The notes under the pieces were generated by a model that was not told where the DNA came from, searched no databases, and saw nothing but the letters and a program-made list of their open reading frames with translations. A program made the position numbers and the translations under genes. A stretch of 14,104 nt of DNA from Candidatus Tectimicrobiota bacterium (GTDB lineage Bacteria; JACPSX01): the NCBI GenBank assembly GCA_016193065.1, contig JACPSX010000211.1:1-14104 (forward strand), in the 5' to 3' direction. Below are positions 1 through 2,561 of the stretch, one piece after another. Each line of letters begins with the position of its first letter. Within the stretch, counting starts at the first letter, position 1.

Positions 1-268
1 CATGGCGGCGCTGAACTGCGTCGACTATGTGACCCTTTTTTCGGAGCTGACCCCCGAGCGCTTGATTGCTGATCTCAAGCCTGACGTGCTGGCCAAGGGG
101 GCGGACTATACTCGGGAACAGGTCGTGGGCCGCGACATCGTGGAAGCTTACGGAGGAGTCGTCGAACTCATTCCCCTGGTGGAGGGACGTTCCACCAGCG
201 GTCTGGTCCAGGCCATCGTCGAGAGGTACAATAATTCCAGCAAAGGCTCGGGGGCAGCGAACCACTAG
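1..268 (+). CDS. hldE: D-beta-D-heptose 1-phosphate adenylyltransferase (RfaE2/HldE C-terminal domain), 5'-truncated
   Basis: This is the 3' part of a gene that begins before the window. The frame is open from base 2 and ends at TAG 266-268. The visible 88 residues match the end of the cytidylyltransferase-fold RfaE2 domain: an AALNCVDYV segment, then ELTPERLIADLKPDVLAKG, the VVGRDIVEAYGG segment, and IPLVEGRSTSGLV near the end. By family knowledge the enzyme transfers AMP from ATP to D-glycero-beta-D-manno-heptose 1-phosphate in the cytoplasm, making the ADP-heptose precursor of LPS inner core. I cannot tell whether this is a stand-alone RfaE2 or the tail of a bifunctional HldE kinase/adenylyltransferase, because the upstream part is missing; the symbol is therefore provisional. 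The ATG at base 2 is internal to the conserved domain and is not the true start. The stop overlaps the next gene's GTG by one base (TAGTG), suggesting translational coupling. Confidence 0.9.
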   Translation, partial: MAALNCVDYVTLFSELTPERLIADLKPDVLAKGADYTREQVVGRDIVEAYGGVVELIPLVEGRSTSGLVQAIVERYNNSSKGSGAANH

Positions 269-1260
269 TGGGAAAAGAAGCCGGAAAATTCTCCTCTCAG
301 TTTGTCGATCTCTCCAAGGTAAAGACCTATCCCCTGGCGGAGCGCAAAAGCCTGGTGCGCCGCCAGGACCTGGCTCCGGCAGTACGCTGGCGGGAGGTGG
401 ACAGCCTTGCTTTCCTCTTCCCGCAGATTTTAAAGGGGAAGGACCTGAGGGAAGTCCGGGAGGCTATCGTCTCCGCGGTTGCCGGGGGAAAGCCGGTTCT
501 GTGGGGATTGGGGGCCCATGTGATTAAGTGCGGGTTGAGCCCGCTGATCATCGATCTCATGGAGCACGGGGCGGTGAGCTGCCTGGCCATGAACGGGGCC
601 GGGGCCGTGCACGATTTCGAAATGGCTTTTCTGGGCCAGACCTCGGAAGACGTGGCCGCGGAGCTGGAAAGCGGCCGCTTCGGGATGGCCCAGGAGACCG
701 GGGCTTTTCTCAATAATGCCTGGAAACGCTACGTGGGAGAGGGTGTGGGTCTGGGGGAGGCCATGGGCCGGGCCCTGTCGGAACGTCCTCTTCCGCACGG
801 GGAGTTGAGCCTGGTGGGGAACGCCTATCGGCTGGGGATTCCGGTGACCCTCCACGTCGCTTTGGGAACCGACATCGTGCACATGCATCCCGGCGCTGAC
901 GGAGCCGCCATTGGTTTGGGAACCATGAACGATTTCCGGCTGTTCACCGGGGTTCTCTCCGGCATGGGGGACGGCGGGGTTTATCTCAACGTGGGCTCCG
1001 CGGTGGTTCTCCCGGAGGTGTTCTTGAAGGCCGTGAGCCTGGCCCGCAATCTCGGGTATCCGGTGCGAAATTTCACCACGGTAAACCTGGATATGATCTC
1101 TCATTACCGTCCCCAGACCAACGTGGTCCAGCGCCCGACCAGCGCAGGTGGAAAGGGGTACTCCCTGATCGGTCATCACGAGATCATGATCCCGCTCCTC
1201 TACCAGCTTGTGGTTGAAGGACTGGAAAGGGTACGGGGATCCGGAGGCCCGGACCTGTGA
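268..1260 (+). CDS. Deoxyhypusine-synthase-like protein of unknown function (330 aa)
   Basis: The product looks like a divergent bacterial member of the deoxyhypusine synthase (DHS) superfamily, and I cannot assign its substrate. What is visible: GAHVIKCGLSPLIIDLMEHG at about 82-101, then AMNGAGAVHDFEMAF at 107-121 and a TSEDV box. By memory this succession resembles the DHS segment where an SG..(I)..LV motif precedes TAGG.EED. Farther on are IPVTLHVALGTDIVHMHPG (191-209), DGAAIG (211-216), a glycine-rich GGVYLNVGSAVVLPEVFLKA stretch (236-255) and SAGGKGYSLIGHHEI (292-306), whose Lys296 might correspond to the DHS catalytic lysine. In eukaryotes DHS uses NAD and spermidine to modify eIF5A; bacteria lack eIF5A, so the role must differ. 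There is no signal peptide or membrane segment, so it is probably cytoplasmic. The GTG start overlaps the upstream heptose-gene stop by one base, and the stop overlaps purB GTG by four. No strong Shine-Dalgarno is seen, which fits coupled translation. The N-terminal KVKTYPLAERKSLV segment looks like family sequence and supports this start. Confidence 0.72.
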   Translation: MGKEAGKFSSQFVDLSKVKTYPLAERKSLVRRQDLAPAVRWREVDSLAFLFPQILKGKDLREVREAIVSAVAGGKPVLWGLGAHVIKCGLSPLIIDLMEHGAVSCLAMNGAGAVHDFEMAFLGQTSEDVAAELESGRFGMAQETGAFLNNAWKRYVGEGVGLGEAMGRALSERPLPHGELSLVGNAYRLGIPVTLHVALGTDIVHMHPGADGAAIGLGTMNDFRLFTGVLSGMGDGGVYLNVGSAVVLPEVFLKAVSLARNLGYPVRNFTTVNLDMISHYRPQTNVVQRPTSAGGKGYSLIGHHEIMIPLLYQLVVEGLERVRGSGGPDL

Positions 1261-2561
1261 TACCCCGCTACAGCCGGCCCGCCATGACCAGCATCTGGTC
1301 CGATGAGAACAAGTACAGGAAGTGGCTGGAGGTCGAGATCCTGTGCTGCGAAGCCTGGTCCCGCCTGGGTGTGGTTCCCGCCGAGGCCGTGGAGCGGATC
1401 CGCCATCGGGCGCGCTTCGACCCCGGGCGGATTGATGAAATCGAGAAAACCGTAAGGCATGATGTTATTGCATTTTTAACGAATGTGGCGGAATCAGTTG
1501 GAGAAGATTCCCGCTTCATTCATATAGGACTTACTTCCTCCGACCTCCTGGACACGACGTTGGCCCTGCAACTCCGGGAGGCCGCTGATTTGATCCTGGA
1601 GGATCTGGCGCGCCTGGAGGAGGTGCTCGAGCGCCGCGCCCGGGAATACAAGCTCACGCCCGTGATCGGCAGGACCCACGGAATTCACGCCGAGCCTACG
1701 ACGTTCGGCCTGAAACTGGCCCTCTGGTATGCCGATGCCGGGCGCAGCCGGGAGCGCATGGCGCGGGCCCGGGGGGTGATCAACTACGGGAAGATCTCCG
1801 GGGCCGTGGGCACCTTTGCCCACGTGCCGCCGGCCGTTGAGGAGTACGTGTGCCAGCGTCTGGGGCTGCAGCCGGCTCCCATCTCGACACAGATCATTCA
1901 GCGCGACCGGCACGCGGAATTTCTCGCCATGCTGGCCCTGGTGGGCGGCATGGTGGAGAAGGTCGCCACCGAGGTCCGACACTTACAGCGCACGGAGGTC
2001 CTGGAAGCGGAAGAGTTTTTCGCGGAAGGGCAGAAGGGTTCCTCGGCCATGCCCCACAAACGGAATCCGGTCGGTGCCGAGCAGCTCTGTGGCTTGGCTC
2101 GCCTGGTGCGGGGCTACGTGGTTCCCGCTCTGGAAAACGTTCCCCTCTGGCACGAGCGTGACATCAGCCATTCTTCCGTGGAGCGGCTGATCCTGCCGGA
2201 CAGCACGATTGCCGTGGACTACATGCTCTGGCGCCTCGCCGGAATCCTGGACCAGCTTCTGGTTTACCCCGAGCGCATGGCCGGAAATCTGGTCCGCAGT
2301 CAGGGGCTGTTCTTTTCCCAGCGCGTGCTGCTGGCCCTGACTCAGAAGGGATTGTCCCGGGAGGAAGCCTACGGGCTCGTGCAAAGCTGCGCCATGGCGG
2401 CCTGGAGAGGGGAGGGGGAATTCAAGGTTCTGCTCAAGAGAGAACCCGGGATCAGCCGCCACCTCTCGCAGGAGGAAATCGAGGACTGTTTTTCCATGGA
2501 GTTTTTCCTGCGTCATGTGGATACCATCTTTCAACGAGTCTTCGGGGGGAAGGAGAGCTAG
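1257..2561 (+). CDS. purB: Adenylosuccinate lyase
   Basis: PurB acts twice in purine synthesis: it releases fumarate from SAICAR to give AICAR, and from adenylosuccinate to give AMP. The 434 residues are the usual length of the short bacterial form. Visible landmarks are the N-terminal MIPRYSRPAM..IWSDENKY..WL.VE segment, RHDVIAF with His68, FIHIGLTSSD with His89, GRTHGIHAEPTTFG with His141, and the fumarase/aspartase-superfamily signature GSSAMPHKRNP (261-271), whose Ser263 is the expected catalytic base. These positions agree with the Bacillus/Thermotoga numbering as I recall it, so the start is well placed. Translation starts at GTG 1257-1259, overlapping the previous stop as GTGA. Bases 1441-1540 are clearly AT-richer (about 41% GC by hand count) than the rest and use unusual codons such as TTA and TCA. 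They nevertheless encode conserved active-site sequence in frame. The gene sits at the head of the pur run. Confidence 0.97.
   Translation: MIPRYSRPAMTSIWSDENKYRKWLEVEILCCEAWSRLGVVPAEAVERIRHRARFDPGRIDEIEKTVRHDVIAFLTNVAESVGEDSRFIHIGLTSSDLLDTTLALQLREAADLILEDLARLEEVLERRAREYKLTPVIGRTHGIHAEPTTFGLKLALWYADAGRSRERMARARGVINYGKISGAVGTFAHVPPAVEEYVCQRLGLQPAPISTQIIQRDRHAEFLAMLALVGGMVEKVATEVRHLQRTEVLEAEEFFAEGQKGSSAMPHKRNPVGAEQLCGLARLVRGYVVPALENVPLWHERDISHSSVERLILPDSTIAVDYMLWRLAGILDQLLVYPERMAGNLVRSQGLFFSQRVLLALTQKGLSREEAYGLVQSCAMAAWRGEGEFKVLLKREPGISRHLSQEEIEDCFSMEFFLRHVDTIFQRVFGGKES
2550..2555 (+). promoter_or_regulatory. Ribosome binding site that fixes the purC start
   Basis: AAGGAG lies seven bases before GTG 2563, at the very end of purB. 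It favours GTG 2563 over an upstream in-frame ATG at 2515, which would place purC's first 16 codons inside purB with no family match. Confidence 0.7.

Follow-up and report, generated by a model that had tools for sequence, protein, structure and literature searches.

A proposed non-homologous replacement for the heptose epimerase HldD on a deoxyhypusine synthase fold

The locus and its protein family

The stretch of DNA analyzed here (14,104 nucleotides of contig JACPSX010000211.1 from a Candidatus Tectimicrobiota bacterium, referred to below as the window) starts within hldE, so this gene is incomplete in the window, and it continues with a gene of the GSU2086 family followed by a purine cluster of purB, C, Q, L and F (Table 1). 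The open reading frame check in the window gave the GSU2086-family gene a GTG start. One base of this start, at 268, is shared with the stop codon of the upstream hldE, and at the other end a GTGA at 1257-1260 overlaps the stop codon of the gene (TGA, 1258-1260) with the GTG start of purB (1257). The preliminary description, in which the gene overlapped an ADP-heptose gene upstream and purB downstream, was therefore correct on this point.

The gene is confirmed as real. It is not a chance open reading frame, as its product belongs to a strongly conserved protein family: the protein scored 414.2 bits against NF052581, the NCBIfam model of the GSU2086 family (cut-off 250), over model positions 2-300 of 301, and mean column identity was 57% in an alignment of 65 family members from many phyla. 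This family, to which Geobacter sulfurreducens GSU2086 belongs, has no function recorded in NCBIfam. Apparent N-terminal extensions in three members (L040, L048 and L060) are candidates only.

Membership in the deoxyhypusine synthase (DHS) family, as first suggested for this protein, was not borne out by the profile search, with 14.8 bits to PF01916 against a Pfam cut-off of 27. Scores also fell below the cut-offs for the TIGR00321 DHS profile (15.3 bits; cut-off 304) and the PF21570 ArgZ/AgrE C-terminal domain (16.6 bits; Pfam cut-off 27). The HldD model TIGR02197 did not match the gene, including at E 1e-70, and the matches of that model in the window's own genome were generic SDRs (best E 1.6e-33). 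To our knowledge, bacteria lack eIF5A. A distinct protein of the DHS family, with the EAVSWGK catalytic motif intact, is encoded elsewhere in the genome of the window (G000:C231:3500-4393, L001; 227 bits).

Table 1. Genes and residue motifs at the 5′ end of the window
Feature	Coordinates	Strand	Basis
hldE 3′ end, adenylyltransferase domain, last 88 aa	2..268	+	phmmer to E. coli HldE C-terminal domain, 50 bits; stop TAG 266-268
GSU2086-family protein, proposed HldD-replacing heptose epimerase, 330 aa	268..1260	+	NF052581, 414 bits; AlphaFold2 pLDDT 91.8; DHS/AgrE fold
GAH.IK.G segment (G81-C88; invariant G82, K87), glycine-rich first Rossmann crossover, putative NAD site	508..531	+	Invariant columns; profile alignment to DHS
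N109-GAGAV-H115-D116-F-E118 box; H/D/E invariant in all three subfamilies	592..621	+	Alignments; position equals HD motif of archaeal DHS and ArgZ/AgrE
D275...Y280-R281...N285...R289, invariant in main subfamily; segment in place of DHS SWGK catalytic region	1090..1134	+	Alignments
Lys296, earlier proposed catalytic Lys; unconserved	1153..1155	+	K 23, R 22, Q 16, A 3 of 76
G302-H303-H304-E305 motif; E305 invariant in main subfamily	1171..1182	+	Alignments
purB, translationally coupled via GTGA overlap	1257..2561	+	purB linkage only in close relatives

Predicted fold and conserved residues

An AlphaFold2 model built with 65 family members as input (pTM 0.88) matched best, with a Z of 20.9, the NAD-binding ornithine cyclodeaminase domain of AgrE/ArgZ, and archaeal DHS (7cmc_A) aligned to it over 271 residues at an rmsd of 3.7 Å (Foldseek E 2.9e-8, Z 20.8). 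The structural prediction thus upholds the DHS-like fold that had been guessed from the sequence. NAD complexes exist among the matched folds for both DHS (1dhs) and AgrE/ArgZ (6lrg), at a Z of about 20. Both DHS and the AgrE domain use NAD for a transient oxidation, and by analogy with these relatives this may be the very logic that a redox epimerase requires. The preliminary description was probably right in expecting an NAD-dependent reaction other than that of DHS.

Residues invariant in the main subfamily include K87, H115, D116, E118, S126, E127, D222, E250, K254, D275, Y280, R281, N285, R289 and E305, with H115, D116, E118, E127, D222 and K254 constant also in both divergent subfamilies (beta and gamma). 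The NGAG..HDFE box reported earlier is present (N109, H115, D116, E118). Lys296, earlier named as a possible catalytic residue, exists in the protein but is not conserved, as this position holds a mixture of K, R, Q and A in 76 main-subfamily members, with other residues in 12 of them, and a catalytic role for Lys296 was rejected on these grounds. Single-sequence comparison to DHS was uninformative. Profile alignment against three DHS proteins (local E 5e-7) put the DHS catalytic motif WGK in a gap. As judged from this alignment, the catalytic Trp-Gly-Lys motif has no counterpart in the GSU2086-family protein, and DHS chemistry is not conserved.

Heptose linkage and exclusion with HldD

Within the source phylum, the search for relatives yielded the window's own genome alone, and sampling was therefore widened to the whole domain; 34 of the 98 genomes in this sample (one genome per family, bacteria-wide) carried the GSU2086 family. 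Within 5 kb of the family gene, 60 of 80 loci from many phyla contained gmhA, the hldE kinase, the hldE adenylyltransferase or gmhB, mostly directly adjacent; gmhA was near in 42 loci, the hldE kinase in 20 and the adenylyltransferase in 18. Heptose genes were likewise close by in many of 33 other loci, and the recurring hldE link anticipated earlier was borne out. In G. sulfurreducens, where the surroundings of GSU2086 have been labeled a “sugar biosynthesis operon”, insertions in the neighboring genes hldE, GSU2086 and gmhA caused near-equal fitness defects (-3.1, -3.2 and -3.7, respectively) in Tn-seq under electrode growth (PMC5585712). One member from a record labeled Nitrosospira (L082) is nearly identical to that of Nitrospira, and this MAG is probably mislabeled.

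The ADP-heptose pathway proceeds through GmhA, the HldE kinase, GmhB, the HldE adenylyltransferase and HldD, the last of which (also called RfaD or WaaD) is the ADP-L-glycero-D-manno-heptose 6-epimerase and has an SDR fold. Among the 98 genomes, the GSU2086-family gene is accompanied by the HldE kinase and GmhA. The distribution of the family is the mirror image of that of HldD, which is the main result of the analysis and was absent from the preliminary description: among 386 genomes, with those holding only divergent (beta/gamma) members set aside, the main subfamily was present in 124 and HldD (TIGR02197) in 113, with no genome containing both where 36.3 were expected (Fisher 4e-24, with the genomes taken as independent and shared ancestry ignored). 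Three of these genomes (G109, G282 and G286) were counted as main subfamily without a subfamily check, and HldD was found in none of them. A strong HldE kinase was present in 225 genomes, of which 104 had GSU2086 only, 88 had HldD only, none had both and 33 had neither, so that some heptose pathways may do without both enzymes; the last group may use D,D-heptose or a third epimerase, or may be incomplete. In further genomes with a main-subfamily gene, HldD was absent from 42 of 43. The sole exception, Geomesophilobacter sediminis, has a full-scoring HldD in addition to its main-subfamily gene. This HldD stands apart from the heptose genes, none of which lies within roughly 8 kb of it (G408:C43:77760-78704, L179). 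The two types occur in different genomes of one taxonomic family in f12, f99, f127 and f198.

In family f198, two genera have a colinear Kdo/heptose cluster in which one operon slot is taken by HldD in one genus and by GSU2086 in the other. The cluster in G367, a genome in which HldD was not found, consists of a GT2 glycosyltransferase, the hldE adenylyltransferase (hldE2), a PEMT-like gene, DUF3108, GSU2086, the hldE kinase (hldE1), kdsB, pyrG, kdsA and a kdsD-like gene. In the sister genus, G238 has the identical gene order at about 53-82% identity to G367, with HldD where GSU2086 stands, G386 has a colinear cluster with HldD in the same slot, and G387 has HldD beside hldE; GSU2086 was absent from all three of these genomes. 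The sequence from G367 is identical to that of L114, an Elusimicrobia MAG. Taken together, the main subfamily is found where the epimerase step of an otherwise complete heptose pathway would be missing, with HldD accompanying the main subfamily in 0 of 124 and 1 of 43 genomes and with the swap in the slot itself.

A single function for the whole family was rejected, as the three apparent co-occurrences with HldD (G023, G079 and G293) involve only divergent beta/gamma members, which score 205-265 bits with the A1 profile compared to at least 365 for main-group members and fall outside the main clade in a quick tree. That beta/gamma members co-occur with HldD in three genomes indicates that proteins of this fold have another or a parallel role as well. 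Several beta members (L049, L149, L151 and L153) are located beside gmhA-like and hldE-like genes unlike the standard ones, forming a second cluster in some genomes, and HldD or the main subfamily is sometimes encoded alongside such clusters in one genome, as might be expected of a parallel nucleotide-heptose pathway. At L058:7944-9548, a beta member is fused to a C-terminal cytidylyltransferase domain (PF01467), and the next open reading frame has similarity to the hldE-like kinase and adenylyltransferase. Beta members probably serve related nucleotide-heptose pathways. Gamma members (L063, L064, L157, L158, L159 and L160) are open reading frames of about 370-440 aa that align in two pieces to the main model, with no alignable YRP..N..R..GHHE segment.

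Proposed function, alternatives and known systems

We propose that the GSU2086-family protein is probably a non-homologous replacement for HldD, epimerizing the heptose precursor by a transient NAD-dependent oxidation; here we infer the activity, the substrate level, the cofactor and the catalytic residues. The DHS-fold enzyme would bind NAD(P) tightly and would oxidize C6 of a D,D-heptose precursor, most likely ADP-heptose and possibly a heptose phosphate, to a ketone. The hydride would then be returned to the other face of the ketone, and the product would have the L-glycero-D-manno configuration used in the LPS inner core. With somewhat less confidence, we also think it likely that the family represents a second, non-homologous class of heptose 6-epimerase on the DHS fold, which would roughly match HldD in its spread over bacterial families and would have been exchanged with it repeatedly; its beta and gamma relatives would define parallel nucleotide-heptose pathways.

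The same linkage and HldD exclusion would also fit an enzyme that acts in this pathway by a different change to the D,D-heptose nucleotide, whether oxidation or epimerization at another carbon or a dehydration, such that a different heptose replaces L,D-heptose. The beta subfamily, in its separate gmhA-like/hldE-like clusters that sometimes accompany HldD, hints at chemistry on related heptoses, but an unchanged product is the simplest explanation for a swap in an identical slot of a colinear cluster in sister genera, and we regard a different heptose, although the main rival, as unlikely. It is far less probable still that the gene replaces another step, namely the GmhB phosphatase or part of HldE, and that HldD and the gene exclude each other only by chance in the lineages sampled. 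GmhB-like proteins went undetected in 8 of 29 main-subfamily genomes in the 98-genome set, but by hand count in that set they are equally frequent in both groups (21 of 29 main-subfamily genomes compared to 22 of 28 HldD genomes), HldE and GmhA are found together with the gene, and HldD and GSU2086 are exchanged inside four taxonomic families. Replacement of GmhB was rejected because GmhB-like proteins co-occur with the gene.

Two further readings start from the fold and from the downstream operon, and we give each of them almost no weight. An enzyme of the deoxyhypusine or homospermidine synthase type acting on polyamines would share the fold and account for the weak DHS profile match, but this reading is largely refuted by scores below the Pfam and NCBIfam cut-offs for DHS, by the WGK motif falling in a gap, by the variable residue at position 296 and by the separate SWGK-bearing protein in the same genome. 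No polyamine linkage was seen, and nothing in the analysis points to the polyamine connection raised in the preliminary description. A purine-linked function, also raised there, would follow from the coupling to purB in the window and from the purB genes near L042, L069 and L150. The neighborhood survey disfavors it, as a strong purB match within 5 kb was found only at L069 among the 80 loci and at L042 and L150 among the others, and these loci fall together with the window in one clade of eight members in a quick tree. As the purB linkage is confined to this small clade of close relatives, the purine connection looks like local operon growth and is probably incidental to function.

The NCBIfam family name and the heptose-operon position in the G. 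sulfurreducens study were already known. Searches of the open-access literature, with most subscription journals outside their coverage, found no functional work on GSU2086 and no report of a non-orthologous HldD replacement; nothing was found in open-access literature on the nickel-pincer nucleotide with ornithine cyclodeaminase. In textbooks, the synthesis of ADP-L-glycero-D-manno-heptose ends with HldD, a step supposed to be general, and ADP-heptose is a building block of the LPS core that innate immunity senses as well. The proposed replacement of HldD, if correct, would fill a pathway gap in Nitrospirota, Desulfobacterota/Geobacter, Omnitrophota, Elusimicrobiota, Acidobacteriota and others, provide the first function for the conserved GSU2086 family, and represent the repurposing of a polyamine-enzyme fold for sugar epimerization.

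Compared to known systems, the protein has its family and its hldE/gmhA context in common with G. sulfurreducens GSU2086, and a function for this family, with none on record, is proposed here. With DHS (PF01916; PDB 1dhs and 7cmc) it shares the fold over about 270 residues, a glycine-rich NAD region and the HD box, but it lacks the SWGK catalytic lysine (human Lys329), falls below the family cut-off, and resides in a heptose rather than a polyamine context. The ArgZ/AgrE C-terminal domain (PF21570/TIGR00300; PDB 6lrg, 6juy and 3c2q) has the motif N.A..HD.E....G.TS in common with it, as well as a known NAD complex, but that domain converts ornithine to proline and has no sugar link, and the window protein scores below its cut-off. 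HldD (TIGR02197) would be its equal in role, with a shared operon slot and a complementary phyletic distribution, whereas the two are unrelated in sequence and differ in structure, HldD having an SDR Rossmann fold and the GSU2086 family the fold of DHS.
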